Of a stretch of 64,000 nt of DNA, positions 1,051 to 62,414 are shown piece after piece (positions within the stretch are counted from its first letter, which is position 1; every line of letters starts with the position of its first letter). The position numbers and the translations under genes were made by a program. The notes under the pieces are model-generated. The model saw only the letters and a program-made list of their open reading frames with translations. It was not told the DNA's origin and did no database searches. Source of the DNA: Salinigranum marinum (GTDB lineage Archaea; Halobacteriota; Halobacteria; Halobacteriales; Haloferacaceae); assembly GCF_024228675.1 (NCBI RefSeq), contig NZ_CP100461.1, positions 3,903,398 through 3,967,397 on the forward strand, written 5' to 3'.

Positions 1051-1887
1051 TCACCGGATCTTTCGGATGTCACTGATGTCGAAGCCGCCGTCGTGGATCT
1101 CCGTCTCGAACTGCACGATGTTCTCGTCTTCGAGTCTCGACAGCACGCCGCGGAACTCCTGGACGACCATCGTCCGCGCGCGCTTGGATCCCCCGGACTC
1201 CCACTCGAAGCAGAACGTCCCGTCGACGGCGTCTTTCAACAGCCCGAGTTCGCCGTCCTCGAGCGTCTCGCGGTTCACCAACAGGAGGATCAGGCCGCCC
1301 CACTGGTGGGCGGCCTTGCTCAACCCCTTGAGGACGAGTGCGATGTCGCTCCACGTCGTCTCGTCGGAGACGGCAGCCACGAGGTCCGTCACTGAGTCGA
1401 TGACGACGAGGCTGTCGGTGGCGTGCTCGGACAGATACGTCCCGAACGCCTCCAGCACGTCGTCGTGCTCCTGGCGCGTCCCTAGGTCACGGAGCGCGCT
1501 CGTTTCCCCCAGATACCACTCCCTGGGGACCGGGCTTGGGTGGAAGTACTCCCGAGAGAGGTCGGCGAACCGGATCTGTTCGGCGGCGCGGTCGACCAGT
1601 TCGGGGTCCATCGTAAAGCCCATCTGCCGGGTGAGGTACGCCTCGTCGGCGGTAAAGGAGACGTAGTGGACCTCCGGCGGTGGCGTCGCGTCCCCGGCCA
1701 ACTCGCCGTAGTGCAACTCGAACAGTTCCTCGTCGATCCGGGCGATCGTGTTCATCACCGCGCTGGTGTAGAGAAACTCCCGTCCCCCGGCACCCGACTC
1801 GCTCGCGAGGAGCACCACCGACCCCTGCGGTGCGCCTCCGTCGACGAGCGAGTCCAACCGGGAGACGCCGAACGGAACGGTGTTCAT
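1051..1887 (-). CDS. RecA/KaiC-like ATPase-fold protein with degenerate P-loop
   Basis: This 278-residue protein starts MNTVPFGVSRLDSLVDGG, the usual opening of KaiC/RadA-like domains. The segment where Walker A should be reads ASESGAGGREF and lacks the P-loop lysine. A hydrophobic strand ending VVIDSVTDL near residues 155-165 fits Walker B. The C-terminal part (residues 200-278) has the core beta strands, including FCFEWESGG. In haloarchaea such single-domain proteins are annotated as HTR-like or RecA-superfamily proteins. Without the lysine, ATP hydrolysis is doubtful, so it may be a sensory or scaffold relative. It lies 59 bases upstream of the coiled-coil gene on the same strand. Confidence 0.7.
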   Translation of the reverse strand: MNTVPFGVSRLDSLVDGGAPQGSVVLLASESGAGGREFLYTSAVMNTIARIDEELFELHYGELAGDATPPPEVHYVSFTADEAYLTRQMGFTMDPELVDRAAEQIRFADLSREYFHPSPVPREWYLGETSALRDLGTRQEHDDVLEAFGTYLSEHATDSLVVIDSVTDLVAAVSDETTWSDIALVLKGLSKAAHQWGGLILLLVNRETLEDGELGLLKDAVDGTFCFEWESGGSKRARTMVVQEFRGVLSRLEDENIVQFETEIHDGGFDISDIRKIR

Positions 1888-1955
1888 ACGCCCCCTGCGA
1901 ATCGAGGGTACAAGAGGCTGCGCCCGGCGCTATCTCATCTGATTCTGCTGTCGCG

Positions 1956-2930
1956 TCAGTCGTCGGTCTCGACCTGCGCGCCGCGGTTCCGCCCGCGGAC
2001 GATCCGGACCTGCCCCGCGACGCCCGCCGCCGCCAGCGCCTCCTCGCCCGCCGCGCCCGCCGCGTCGGCGTTCGCCGCGTCGGTCACGCCGTACACCGCC
2101 GGCCCCCACGACGACTGCCCCGCACCGAACACCGCGGGCGTCTCCGACAGCGTCGCCACGATTTTGCCGACCGGCGGGCGGTACGTCCCGCCCTGTTCGT
2201 CGGCGTACCACGCGCCGTTCAGCCGGCCGACCTCCTCGACGGCCGAGCCGAAGCGCTCGGCGTTCCCGGTCGCGACGGCGGGGAGCACGCGCCGCGTCAA
2301 CACGCCCGCGATCCGGTTCGAGATCACGGGATCGGCCCGTTCGACGGCGGTGCGCATGCTCGCGTCCTCCACCTCCCCGCTCCGGCCCTCGTCGAGTTCG
2401 GGGAGGACGAGCAGGAAGCGCCACCCGGCGGGGACGGGATGGCTCGCCGCCACTGGGGGGACCGTCCAGTCGCCGTCCGCCGGCCGCGACGTGGTGAACC
2501 GAACGGTCGGGTGGCCCGCGTCGAGGACGAACCCGCCGGACTCGAACGTCGCCACGCCGACGCCGGAGCGACCGCCGCGCCCGAGGTCGGGGGCCAGTTC
2601 TCTGACCGCCGGTTCGACGCCGTTGGCCCGCGCGACGGCCGTCAGCGTGGCGAGCGCCAACTGCGTCCCGCTGCCCACGCCGACGTGTCGCGGGAGCGAT
2701 CGCTCGACGGTGAGACGAGCGCCCGGCACGCCGAGCAGCGAGACGGCCCGACGGGCGTACGCGGCGGCGCCAGGGTCGTCACAGTCGACGCCGTCGGTCG
2801 GGGCGGCGGTGACGACGGTTCGCGGCTCGCGGAGCGCCAGGCCCAGCCCCCCGTAGAGTCGCTCGTGCGACAGGCTCAGATTGGTGAAGCCGAAGTGGAG
2901 CCGCCCACCAGTCGAGACACGCACGGTCAT
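1956..2930 (-). CDS. beta-ribofuranosylaminobenzene 5'-phosphate synthase-like (GHMP superfamily)
   Basis: This 324-residue protein opens MTVRVSTGGRLHFGFTNLS, typical of beta-RFAP synthases. It has the Gly/Ser-rich GHMP loop LPRHVGVGSGTQLAL near residues 90-104. In methanogens the enzyme condenses PRPP with p-aminobenzoate, releasing CO2 and PPi, in the first committed step of the methanopterin branch. Haloarchaea do not make methane but often carry this homologue. A methanopterin-pathway enzyme, mch (55945-56898), is also in this window. The true substrate here is unproven, and other GHMP kinases such as mevalonate-type kinases are the main alternative. The gene stands alone on the minus strand with no overlaps. 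Confidence 0.75.
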   Translation of the reverse strand: MTVRVSTGGRLHFGFTNLSLSHERLYGGLGLALREPRTVVTAAPTDGVDCDDPGAAAYARRAVSLLGVPGARLTVERSLPRHVGVGSGTQLALATLTAVARANGVEPAVRELAPDLGRGGRSGVGVATFESGGFVLDAGHPTVRFTTSRPADGDWTVPPVAASHPVPAGWRFLLVLPELDEGRSGEVEDASMRTAVERADPVISNRIAGVLTRRVLPAVATGNAERFGSAVEEVGRLNGAWYADEQGGTYRPPVGKIVATLSETPAVFGAGQSSWGPAVYGVTDAANADAAGAAGEEALAAAGVAGQVRIVRGRNRGAQVETDD

Positions 2931-3040
2931 ACGCTTCCCTTCGACGGCGGCGGTAAGTCGGTTCGGATTCGCGCCCCGCGACGACGCGACCTGCGCCCTG
3001 TGCCTTGCGCCTCGGTTGGTTCCCCCCTCGTCGCCGGCGT

Positions 3041-3370
3041 CTAGCCGGAGCCCGGAAGCGGGCAGAGACTCGCGGTGAACACCACGGCGTCGTCCGTGTC
3101 GTTGCGCGCGCCGTGGGGGACGCCGCGTTCGTGGAGGACGACGCCGGGAGCCGCAACCCGTTCCTCGTCGTCGCCCTGCAGGACCGTCACTTCCCCGTCG
3201 AGCACGTGGAAGACGTTCGTGCTGTCACCGTGTTCGTGTGGATCCAGCGTCGCGCCGGGTCCGAGCGCGAACGCCTTCACCAGCACGTCGTCGGTCACGA
3301 CCAGTTCTCCCGTCTGGACCTCACCGTCGCCGGGGTCGAACGAGGCGAGGTCGAGTCTGTCGAGCGTCAC
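3041..3370 (-). CDS. cupin-domain protein
   Basis: This is a 109-residue single-domain cupin. Motif 1 is visible as DPHEHGDSTNVFHVLDGEVTV, with the metal-ligand pattern HxH...E split over it, and motif 2 as GVVLHERGVPHG. I chose the GTG at 3370 over the longer frame that opens at 3676. The TATA-like run of seven T (minus strand, bases 3391-3397) lies 21-27 bases upstream of it, and the extra 102 residues are Arg-rich and unlike a folded protein. Cupins of this size bind a metal and may be isomerases, dioxygenases or binding proteins; the substrate is unknown. The gene is not overlapped by its neighbours. Confidence 0.75.
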   Translation of the reverse strand: MTLDRLDLASFDPGDGEVQTGELVVTDDVLVKAFALGPGATLDPHEHGDSTNVFHVLDGEVTVLQGDDEERVAAPGVVLHERGVPHGARNDTDDAVVFTASLCPLPGSG

Positions 3371-3807
3371 GACTGCCCTCTCGTCGCGGTCGAAAAAAAG
3401 CGTGCGGGTGGGCGCTCCGTCGGCCAGTGCTCGGCGCTCGATCCGGCCCGCCCGTCGTGCATCTCCGATCGGACGCGTGCGCCCGACCGGGGGGAGCGCT
3501 CGTTCGCGTCCCCTGTGGCCCGAACGCTCTCCCTCTCCTCCCCTTCGGGTGGATGCGACATCGATACTCGTTCTCGCTCGGGCACGGCGTGCGACGAACG
3601 GGCCCTCGGAAGTGCCGAGCAGCGACCGGACGCCCACCGCACGTGGCTGCGACGACTCGCGTCGTGTCCGTCGCACGTGGTCGTCGGGACCGAAGGGGCT
3701 TGAACCGTCCCGACGCCGAACCCGAGTTGTCCCCGGTTGTACACCGATTAACGCCGATTCACGGGATTAATCCGTGCCTAAGACCGCAGGAAAGGCGACT
3801 CGCGCGC
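3371..3807. other. intergenic region with hairpin and cupin promoter
   Basis: This 437-base gap between two minus-strand genes has no convincing coding frame. It holds the T7 TATA-like element of the cupin gene at 3391-3397. A 9-bp perfect inverted repeat (CGTCGGGAC / GTCCCGACG, about 3683-3715) encloses a loop containing CTTGAACC, which reads like a tRNA T-loop on the minus strand. The near-palindrome ACGGGATTAATCCGT lies near 3762-3776, just downstream of the universal stress gene, and may act as its terminator. Confidence 0.5.
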
Positions 3808-60026: not shown

Positions 60027-60221
60027 TTAGTTGCGGACGAGGTTCGTCGCGCGGGGGCCCTTGGGGGCCTGTTCGATGCTGAATTCGACCTCGGTACCTT
60101 CCGTCAGGTCCTCGCCGCCGACATCCTCCATGTGGAAGAACACGTCGTCGTCAGAGTCGTCCGTCGAGATGAAACCGTAGCCGCCTGTGTCGTTGAAGAA
60201 ATCAACCTTTCCGTTTGCCAT
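60027..60221 (-). CDS. cspA: cold-shock domain protein
   Basis: A 64-residue single-stranded nucleic-acid-binding OB-fold. RNP1 is GYGFISTDD and RNP2 is DVFFHM. The start MANGKVDFFNDTGGYGF is standard; an ATG three codons earlier (60230) is possible. The C-terminus (KGPRATNLVRN) is typical of haloarchaeal Csp. It lies upstream of the tRNA-Gly region on the same strand. An AT-rich TTTTATTTATATACCC (minus strand, 60240-60255) is the probable promoter, centred about 26 bases before the ATG. Confidence 0.93.
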   Translation of the reverse strand: MANGKVDFFNDTGGYGFISTDDSDDDVFFHMEDVGGEDLTEGTEVEFSIEQAPKGPRATNLVRN

Positions 60222-60458
60222 TGCAAACAAACGTAGACTGGGTATATAAATAAAACTTGCGAGGGTCGCGGTACCATGACCCCTCCCAGGGGAGTGGAGA
60301 TCCTATCGCCCGGTGCCACGAGTGGTAACCCTCCGCGGACGCTCTCGCTGATCGGCCCTTCTCGCTGTTCTCCGGAGCCGGCACTTCCGTCGACGACACT
60401 CGTGAGTCTCCGACACCGTCGTCGCCGAGGCCTCCTCGTCTCGTACAGGAGTCGAGCC
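60222..60458. other. intergenic region between cspA and the tRNA-Gly repeats
   Basis: This holds the cspA promoter (60240-60255). A GGTACCATGACC stretch and a CCCCTCCCAGGGGAG hairpin-like sequence lie at about 60280-60295. No gene is recognised in the remainder. It runs into the tRNA-like repeat units described separately. Confidence 0.4.
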
Positions 60459-60757
60459 GTGCGCTGGTTGGGATGTTGAACCGAGTAGAGATGTGCTCGC
60501 TCGTACCTCGCTGCGCGCGACTCTCCGGGTTCAAACCTCAGGAACTCACACACCGCACTCAACGAGGCCGAGCGGCACGCGAAGCGTCCGCTCGTTGTGT
60601 TGCGTTCGGAGAAGTGCGCTGGCTGGGATGTTGAACCACGGTCGTTCCGCTCACTGCGTTCGCTCCACTCTCTGATTCGAATCCCAGGTGCTCACACACC
60701 ACGTCCGACGAGGCCGAGCGACACAGAAGTCGCTCGCCGTGTCAGATGTTGTAGAAG
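60459..60757 (-). repeat. two imperfect tandem units carrying tRNA-Gly 3' fragments
   Basis: On the plus strand GTGCGCTGGTTGGGATGTTGAA (60459-60480) and GTGCGCTGGCTGGGATGTTGAA (60614-60635) repeat the tRNA-Gly 3' end, which itself reads GTGCGCTGGCTGGGATTTGAA at 60757-60777. Spacings are 155 and 143 bases. Between the fragments, the blocks CTCACACACC, CGAGGCCGAGCG and CGCTCG recur in the same order. Within each unit an opposite-strand T-arm-like sequence (GGTTCAAACCTCAG, ATTCGAATCCCAG) lies about 60-70 bases away and can pair with it. Confidence 0.65.
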
Positions 60758-60828
60758 TGCGCTGGCTGGGATTTGAACCCAGGTTGTGACCATGGCAAGG
60801 TCACGTGATACCACTACACTACCAGCGC
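60758..60828 (-). tRNA. tRNA-Gly (GCC)
   Basis: The minus strand folds as a cloverleaf: acceptor GCGCTGG/CCAGCGC, D-arm GTGT...TCAC, anticodon stem TGACC/GGTCA with loop TTGCCAT (anticodon GCC), and T-arm CTGGG-TTCAAAT-CCCAG. The discriminator is A and CCA is not encoded. A TATA-like GGATTTTTATAGC (minus strand, 60860-60872) lies about 38 bases upstream, as expected for an archaeal tRNA promoter. Two partial copies of its 3' end lie downstream. Confidence 0.95.
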
Positions 60829-61328: not shown

Positions 61329-61539
61329 GCACGGCCGAAGAGGGGTCACCCGCGCTCGGGCGCTCCCGTGTGACACCCTGTGACCCCGCGTGACCCGCGG
61401 TCGATCACACCCCGACGTGTGTGTCTCTGACACACGTATTCTCGGGTCTGCGTGACTGTCAGGCCCTCACACCCCCACATACGATTCGCTATCCTTTTCA
61501 ACGAGGCTCGGGTACGTCGGGTACAGTCTAGACGCAACG

Positions 61540-61557
61540 ATGGACGGCTCGGCATGA
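61540..61557 (+). promoter_or_regulatory. five-codon micro-ORF overlapping the methyltransferase start
   Basis: ATG GAC GGC TCG GCA TGA encodes MDGSA, and its stop shares two bases with the ATG of the next gene (ATGA). The TATA-like CTTTTCAA (61495-61502) would start transcription near 61525, so the micro-ORF would be in the leader. It may couple ribosomes to the downstream gene. Confidence 0.4.
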
Positions 61558-62414
61558 CACTCAGCGTACTCGTGCCGTCTTCCCTCGTCCGGGAAGCCGA
61601 GGACCAACGCGAGGCGACTCGCAAACTCGGCTACGTCGCCCGAGCGGCGACGGTGTTCCGGGCGGACCGGCTCGTCGTCTTCCCCGACCGGGAAGGCGAA
61701 ACACGGTGGGGAGGCGGGTTCGTCGAAACCGTACTCCGGTACGCCGCCACCCCACCCCACCTCCGAAAGGAGGTGTGGGACAGGCGGGACGAACTGGCGT
61801 ACGTCGGTGTCTTGCCGCCCCTCCGAATCGCGTCTACGACCGGCTCCGACTCTGCCGAGTCGGGGTCGTTAACACAGGGAATCGTGACTGAGGTCGGACC
61901 TGAAGGCCGCGTCCGGGTCACTTGCGGACTGCAACACCCGATCTCGCTCCTCGTCCCCTCCGACATGGAGGTCGAGGAGGGAGAGCGCGTCACCATCAGG
62001 ATCTCTTCGAGAGAGCCGGTCCGTGCGCGGATCGTCGACGCCCCACAGCCGGGGTACGACGTCTCCCGTATGGACCTCGCGGAAGCGCTGGGCCGCCCCG
62101 ACGCCGGGATTCGCGTGGCGACGTCCCGGTTCGGACGGCCGCTGTCCGCCGACGGACTGGCGGATCTCACCCGCCGGGTCGCCGAGGGCGCAACGGTCGC
62201 CTTCGGCGCGCCCGGGCGGGGGCTTCCGGACATCCTCGGTATCGAGACCGAGGCCGTCGCCGCCGCGAGCGGCGAAGTCGAACCCGACGGTTCGGATCCG
62301 GGGTTCGACCTCTGGCTGAATACGATTCCGGCGCAGGGCAGCGAGGTGGTGCGAACGGAGGAAGCGATGTTCGCCTCGCTCGCGACCCTGACACTCCCAA
62401 GCCAGACGGAGTAA
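61554..62414 (+). CDS. SPOUT-like RNA methyltransferase (DUF171) heading the ribosomal operon
   Basis: A 286-residue protein of the archaeal DUF171/SPOUT methyltransferase family, beginning MTLSVLVPSSLVREAEDQREATRKLGYVARAATVFRADRLVVFPD. It contains an OB-like insert (GIVTEVGPEGRVRVTCGLQHPISL) and the knot-associated motif FGAPGRGLPDILG. It probably methylates rRNA. It sits directly upstream of rpl3 and is a known companion of the L3-L4-L23 operon in archaea. The ATG at 61554 is preferred over the longer frame from 61452 because the promoter lies inside that extension. Confidence 0.85.
   Translation: MTLSVLVPSSLVREAEDQREATRKLGYVARAATVFRADRLVVFPDREGETRWGGGFVETVLRYAATPPHLRKEVWDRRDELAYVGVLPPLRIASTTGSDSAESGSLTQGIVTEVGPEGRVRVTCGLQHPISLLVPSDMEVEEGERVTIRISSREPVRARIVDAPQPGYDVSRMDLAEALGRPDAGIRVATSRFGRPLSADGLADLTRRVAEGATVAFGAPGRGLPDILGIETEAVAAASGEVEPDGSDPGFDLWLNTIPAQGSEVVRTEEAMFASLATLTLPSQTE

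Follow-up and report, generated by a model that had tools for sequence, protein, structure and literature searches.

Many haloarchaeal tRNA genes are followed by members of a family of short units, each of which carries a copy of the 3' end of the tRNA behind which it lies. Our preferred reading, held with slightly more confidence than doubt, is that these units are apparently non-coding, non-autonomous cassettes which are site-specific for tRNA 3' ends and probably depend on a recombinase supplied in trans. A set of 167 distinct units with a recognisable inverted T-arm was obtained from behind tRNAs of 31 anticodon types under 42 haloarchaeal genome labels (28 sampled genomes and 14 from named records, two sets which may overlap), and the length of these units has a median of 126 bp and a 5-95% range of 98-156 bp.

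The array behind tRNA-Gly(GCC) and the anatomy of its units

In the window, by which we mean the whole 64,000-nucleotide stretch of DNA analysed, the tRNA-Gly(GCC) gene lies on the minus strand, and 'downstream' therefore means towards lower coordinates. The array contains the following features:

60757-60828, minus strand: intact tRNA-Gly(GCC) (ARAGORN; Rfam RF00005, 66.7 bits)
about 60757-60778, minus strand: repeat D0, the part of the intact tRNA-Gly from the T-loop to the 3' end
60689-60756, minus strand: trailer and hairpin region (hp1) of unit 1 (fold against shuffles; same place in relatives, by eye)
60674-60688, minus strand: inverted T-arm of unit 1, I1, CCTGGGATTCGAATC (sequence; cognate complementarity test on 160 units)
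60637-60673, minus strand: type A core of unit 1 (alignment A1; matches of model R1 in own genome and relatives)
60614-60636, minus strand: D1 of unit 1, direct copy of the tRNA-Gly 3' end, GTTCAACATCCCAGCCAGCGCAC
60543-60613, minus strand: trailer and hp1-like region of unit 2 (repeat detection and sequence)
60528-60542, minus strand: inverted T-arm of unit 2, I2, CCTGAGGTTTGAACC (sequence)
60482-60527, minus strand: type B core of unit 2 (alignment A2, where both sides of the inner stem have changed)
60459-60481, minus strand: D2 of unit 2, direct copy of the tRNA-Gly 3' end
60027-60221, minus strand: cold-shock protein gene adjoining the array (Pfam CSD, 67.4 bits for 60027-60215)

Unit 1 runs from 60756 to 60614 and unit 2 from 60613 to 60459, each being ~150 bp. 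The initial annotation had described three copies of a tRNA-Gly 3'-end segment at intervals of 155 and 143 bases with only the last within the intact tRNA, and this layout was recovered: the copies start at 60454, 60609 and 60752 on the plus strand, with 29-nt identities to the first of 90% for the second and 72% for the third, and as ARAGORN places the tRNA at 60757-60828 on the minus strand, the units lie downstream of it. The likeness it had reported between the spacers is 78% over 49 nt (60530-60578 versus 60676-60724), and the opposite-strand T-arm that it saw in each unit is an instance of a general pattern, described below for 160 units. Its further claim that units of about 150 bases were duplicated holds as far as the units are repeated; a simple local duplication was rejected, since the type A core is common to different tRNAs and different genomes. 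Tandem Repeats Finder gave no repeat at a score of at least 30 in the window array, which we ascribe to divergence of the units, and an Rfam scan of 60430-60756 returned no match at E<=1. The possibility that the units are remnants of full tRNAs was rejected as well, since the window repeats contain only the part from T-loop to 3' end and RF00005 and ARAGORN called no tRNA in the window array other than the intact tRNA-Gly. Elsewhere in the window, positions 61900-61999 match the L4-Archaeoglobi ribosomal protein leader (RF03135, 73 bits), inside an ORF at 61452-62414 and about 420 bases ahead of the next long ORF (62421).

Read in the direction of the tRNA, a unit begins with the trailer and hp1, continues with the inverted T-arm (I) and a core, and closes with D, a direct tRNA copy of about 22 nt which extends from the GTTC of the T-loop through the tRNA 3' end. 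Type A cores share the frame CAGGGAG, variable tip, CGACCGTG, and type B cores have an inner stem such as CCAG-T-CG / CG-T-CTGG, of which both sides have changed in alignment A2 (its left arms are misregistered in some rows, and its outer pairs could not be read and were not used). When each of 83 non-A cores had its 5' side matched with its own 3' side, the match was 5.41 compared with 4.60 for re-dealt partners (sd 0.12, 60 deals), so judged by this comparison the non-A cores preserve their inner stem, while the 74 A cores are too uniform to show covariation (3.34 versus 3.33). A strict 4-bp inner-stem pattern matched five units only, and this count was not used; a kink-turn in the core was rejected by eye, there being no 3-nt bulge beside tandem G.A pairs. 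In two arrays (L039 of G034, copy 3, and L042 of G013, copy 1) the core is replaced by a GC hairpin with A/T runs or by a reversed generic GAACGAAGTGAGCG-like repeat, and there are therefore more core types than A and B. The latter array also includes, at 415-491 and behind its intact tRNA-Gly, a pseudo tRNA-Gly of full length whose anticodon is abnormal.

The fit between the inverted arm and the tRNA was assessed in 160 units by asking how often the bases that precede the invariant GATTYGAA on its 5' side pair with the D1 T-stem. Cognate pairing at positions 1-3 was 0.82, 0.72 and 0.46, compared with 0.67, 0.45 and 0.26 for non-cognate partners (another amino acid), and was above all 200 deals; at position 4 it was 0.42 versus 0.33, which falls among the values of the deals. 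When gaps were permitted, the flank before I showed a complementarity to the cognate acceptor plus trailer of 13.01 versus 9.33 (sd 0.18), to the acceptor alone of 7.66 versus 6.81 (sd 0.13), to the trailer alone of 9.40 versus 7.52 (sd 0.15), and a lower one to D1 of 10.24 versus 9.27 (sd 0.17), all with sd values that are too small because units of related genomes are not independent. The I arm is therefore cognate: along the array an inverted copy (I) stands between two direct ones (D0 and D1), and could pair with either of them.

When folded as RNA, hp1 (60690-60756) has a z-score of -2.76, with none of 200 shuffles as good, whereas the two I-core-D hairpins of the window are no better than shuffles (z 0.83 and 0.16). 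The whole tRNA plus unit 1 RNA reaches z -2.98, and in its predicted fold the 5' end of the tRNA pairs with D1. The mean z of -3.22 over 160 units is inflated, since I was chosen by motif.

Spread over tRNAs and genomes

A search of the same genome with the window units identified five more places, behind Leu-CAA, Asp, Val-TAC, Met-CAT and Gly-CCC, where the copies are on the same strand as the tRNA, just 3' of it, and each resemble that tRNA's 3' end. In three congeneric genomes, a cognate 3'-end copy with an alignment score of at least 28 was present within about 350 nt downstream of 49 of the 147 predicted tRNAs (16/54, 15/48 and 18/45 per genome), which include some viral or doubtful ones. 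The same test gave 0/146 upstream, 2/147 antisense and 3/1109 with non-cognate probes, and the shuffled-sequence control that the initial annotation had named gave 0.0 copies with dinucleotide shuffles; the test as a whole rejects a chance origin. A cluster of tightly spaced tRNA-like genes for Arg, Glu, Met, Tyr, Thr and Gln in the same genome as the window (contig C1, about 280750-283000), possibly viral, was also noted, and no 3'-end copies were found behind its members.

A further search used R1, a covariance model built from 11 sequences of type A units. In the genome of the window it matches at least 14 places at E<=1, all of those listed being 3' of a tRNA (at one, a Trp tRNA recognised only when introns were allowed). 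At E<=1e-4, R1 matches 49 of 294 sampled genomes of the phylum, all within the order of the window, taken to be Halobacteriales, where 49 of the 53 sampled genomes match; there was no match among the 241 other sampled genomes, 16 of which are listed as the same phylum and 225 were placed outside the order from the sort order. As R1 favours type A and 14 candidates were scored per genome, the counts per genome are lower bounds.

The best R1 matches in 29 other genomes sit 19-286 nt behind a tRNA in 28 cases, the 29th being behind a displaced tRNA-Gly 3' end, and in an overlapping set of 60 loci from 10 genomes, 64 of 68 R1 matches follow a called tRNA of the same strand at a distance of 14-365 nt, and the remaining four follow displaced tRNA ends. 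All 17 pattern matches in named records (from Halorubrum, Halobium, Natronococcus and others) are also behind a tRNA, one of them an intron-bearing tRNA-Met that was read by eye. None of the R1 matches examined was away from tRNAs or displaced tRNA 3' ends. At the exceptional loci (L121/L307, L267, L304 and L305) a partial tRNA 3' end can be recognised by eye ahead of the unit, where integrated elements have presumably shifted it, and the four units behind displaced ends suggest, again by eye, later and separate integrations. Two of these partial ends (L304 in G169, L267 in G263) are preceded by ORF ends which by eye resemble integrase C-termini, and which perhaps represent further elements integrated at unit-bearing tRNAs.

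Junctions, turnover and cargo

The junctions of the units are precise. At tRNA-Glu-CTC, two congeners read ...GACGGAGCA followed directly by TCCCTTCCTGCCGCC, and in the third a unit is present, its D1 being followed by TCCTTTCCTGCCGCC. Over 37 filled/empty pairs from three genomes, which are not independent, the flank of the last D of the filled site matched the tRNA flank of the emptier genome in 13, compared with 22 of 1464 random flank comparisons. Seven of the 13 matched there only (Arg-GCG, Glu-CTC, Leu-CAG, Leu-TAA, Met-CAT, Pro-GGG and Thr-TGT), with the strongest matches for Arg-GCG, Leu-CAG, Met-CAT and Glu-CTC, and with Leu-TAA and Thr-TGT being no better than the best random ones. 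In 10 of the 37 pairs (including six of the 13) the 'empty' flank resembles the first unit of the filled genome, and some 'empty' sites therefore hold decayed, sub-threshold units. The comparison with sister genomes which the initial annotation had recommended thus shows units bounded exactly by D copies, and congeners in which the corresponding site is empty; direct repeats of the 3' end, an intact tRNA and an empty site in relatives, all seen here, are the hallmarks of elements that target tRNAs.

Arrays are variable between congeners, and the presence of units behind the same tRNA is patchy. Reciprocal best anchors in 46 array pairs located the differences at the tRNA-proximal side in nine, at inner or distal positions in 13 and at both in nine, with no difference in 15; a tRNA-proximal insertion polarity, hinted at by a first comparison, was dropped after this fuller one, which somewhat weakens both the cassette reading and the integron-like one considered below. 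Clear proximal differences were found for Gly-CCC (G001), Arg-GCG (G000) and Leu-CAG, whereas at Asp (G001) and Gly-GCC (G003) they were clearly distal. At Leu-CAG, units are present in G000 and G001 but the site of G003 is empty, which is best explained by a precise loss, and others among the differences may be gains. Near-exact tandem copies are present in Halovivax (L146), and tRNA-Lys of G253 is followed by four 111-bp units which are identical in the parts compared. Cores from different tRNAs of one genome exceed the between-genome likeness by 0.011, a value reached in 493 of 2000 permutations, so homogenisation within a genome is unsupported, and cores behind the same tRNA in different genomes are slightly more alike (0.797 versus 0.758), a pattern that speaks against recent mobility and that long residence at each tRNA would explain as well as mobility would. 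Taken together with the patchy presence in congeners, it suggests that the units are old residents which turn over, and not the product of a recent burst.

The units are almost always without genes, and cargo is rare. For 222 tRNAs, at least 900 nt of downstream sequence could be inspected; three gaps there are longer than 330 nt, two of which hold ORFs and end in another full tRNA. The third ends in a bare 3'-end copy: it is a 905-bp gap between two D copies in G001, where a gene for a PIN-domain protein is preceded by a small ORF (no Pfam match), which would fit a toxin-antitoxin pair. In G003 a unit on one side and a decayed tRNA-Gly 3' end with hp1-like sequence after it on the other enclose a cold-shock gene, which may therefore be cassette cargo, and no cold-shock gene was seen by eye at that place in G001 and G002. 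Behind the cold-shock gene of the window no further 3'-end copy was found at a score of at least 20 down to 57001. The same tRNA-Gly in G002 contains an element of ~2.1 kb with a phage-integrase gene (L049, about 1360-3580); this element has a longer att block, from anticodon to 3' end, and lies ahead of an hp1 remnant.

Origin of the units and comparison with known systems

That the junctions at D copies are precise and that only tRNAs are targeted speaks for site-specific recombination at the tRNA 3' end. In the reading that we prefer, the cassette would consist of hp1 (starting at the tRNA trailer), the inverted T-arm and the structured core, and would sit exactly between two D copies, with a second tRNA end and the native flank behind it, and the tRNA would therefore stay intact. 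A tyrosine recombinase of the tRNA-3'-end type would recognise the T-arm palindrome or hairpin and insert the cassette, recombination between D copies would excise it precisely, and cassettes would stack in tandem, leaving arrays that differ between congeners; as the units are too short for a gene, the enzyme would act in trans. No recombinase was tied to the units, and the examined loci were without an integrase-bearing element ending in I, core and D.

The initial annotation had suggested serial att-site scars of integrative elements, and precise insertion between 3'-end direct repeats and the empty sites agree with that idea, whereas scars of assorted large elements do not agree with a narrow length (98-156 bp, 5-95%) and with cores recurring behind many tRNAs. 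Length and recurring core types equally count against the unlikely, if serious, alternative that the units are att-only remnants of integrated viruses or plasmids, left as att arms (hp1, I and core) and a displaced tRNA end after deletion of the element. Integration does yield 3'-end direct repeats and empty sites, archaeal integrases commonly target tRNA 3' ends (PMC8371274), and both the integrase-bearing element in the same tRNA-Gly of G002 and the displaced tRNA ends at four loci would suit such remnants, but the att block of the G002 element is different and longer, and two exact type A patterns had no match in viral contigs and gave no parent element with the core. Unit 1 had no match in phages and one weak 34% match in plasmids, and with nothing convincing in viral contigs, phages or plasmids a halovirus or plasmid origin of the core was rejected.

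A role at the RNA level, where units co-transcribed as structured trailers would steer folding, 3' processing or termination of the tRNA, with I as antisense to and D as a decoy of the tRNA 3' end, appears improbable to us. The complementarity of the flank before I to the cognate acceptor and trailer, the stability of the window hp1 and the predicted pairing of the tRNA 5' end with D1 are all consistent with it, but the I-D hairpins of the window, which the initial annotation had pictured as possible tRNA-like transcripts read through from the tRNA promoter, do not exceed shuffles, 60430-60756 lacks an Rfam match at E<=1, and the patchy presence behind the same tRNA in congeners indicates that the units are non-essential. 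Transposition with target-site duplication at the tRNA 3' end, by a staggered cut like that of a casposase or Cas1, would copy the cognate D automatically and would be a simpler account of it, as D would fit every tRNA without a tRNA-specific donor, and casposon insertions are flanked by target-site duplications (PMC6563490). It leaves unexplained why the I arm, too, fits the cognate tRNA, no transposase was tied to the units, and we regard it as the least probable of these readings.

Were the cassette reading correct, the units would add a new layer to the archaeal mobilome, present in nearly all sampled genomes of one order and at about one third of tRNAs (three genomes). They would account for the clutter seen where tRNA genes end, which can easily pass for att scars, would be ready targets for finding the responsible recombinase, and would bear on why tRNA 3' ends are hot spots of integration. 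We found no published description of tRNA-tail units in mainly open-access literature, which is no proof of novelty.

Several known systems share features with the units. Casposon insertions and CRISPR arrays also have a repeat duplicated at a fixed site, but in the units it is the 3' end of a tRNA that is repeated. The MITEs, PATEs and small mobile repeats (SMR) of Haloquadratum are likewise short and non-coding with inverted arms or palindromes, and SMRs and PATEs are described as lacking target duplication (PMC3119063), whereas the units are strictly tRNA-specific and have a tRNA-derived direct repeat; copies dispersed beyond one target class, as in MITEs and SMRs, were not seen among the R1 matches examined. 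Integrative elements of tRNA 3' ends (tyrosine integrases, pNOB8, SNJ2 and related types) share precise insertion, direct repeats and an intact tRNA, and differ from the units, which are about 100-155 bp, have no integrase gene, show recurring cores behind many tRNAs and form arrays.

The cassette arrays of integrons and CALINs (clusters of attC sites without integrase) resemble the units in having tandem cassettes which each end in an inverted-arm element, and a boundary at GTT. The end motif of the units is GTTCRAAT, compared with GTTRRRY in integrons, and the 46 array pairs showed no clear insertion polarity such as integrons have; in addition, a tRNA gene here provides the fixed site, its 3' end is what is repeated, and genes are almost absent. 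One unit gap does hold a PIN toxin gene, and toxin-antitoxin cassettes are reported from a CALIN of the halophilic bacterium Halorhodospira halochloris (PMC7923331). The integron integrase IntI (TIGR02249) was above its curated cut-off in none of 40 genomes, and an integron integrase was rejected; weak matches at E<=0.001 were present in 26 of the 40 and in all 14 control genomes too, and are therefore probably other tyrosine recombinases. It is doubtful, though somewhat less so than an RNA-level role, that the units form an integron-like system of their own, in which tRNA genes would be the attachment platform and a recombinase would insert hairpin-ended cassettes behind the T-loop, each with a spare cognate 3' end and in a few cases also a gene, for a PIN toxin or a cold-shock protein. 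The anatomy of the units, with outer arms, spacer, inner stem and variable tip, resembles that of attC, a resemblance which we take as analogy and not as membership.
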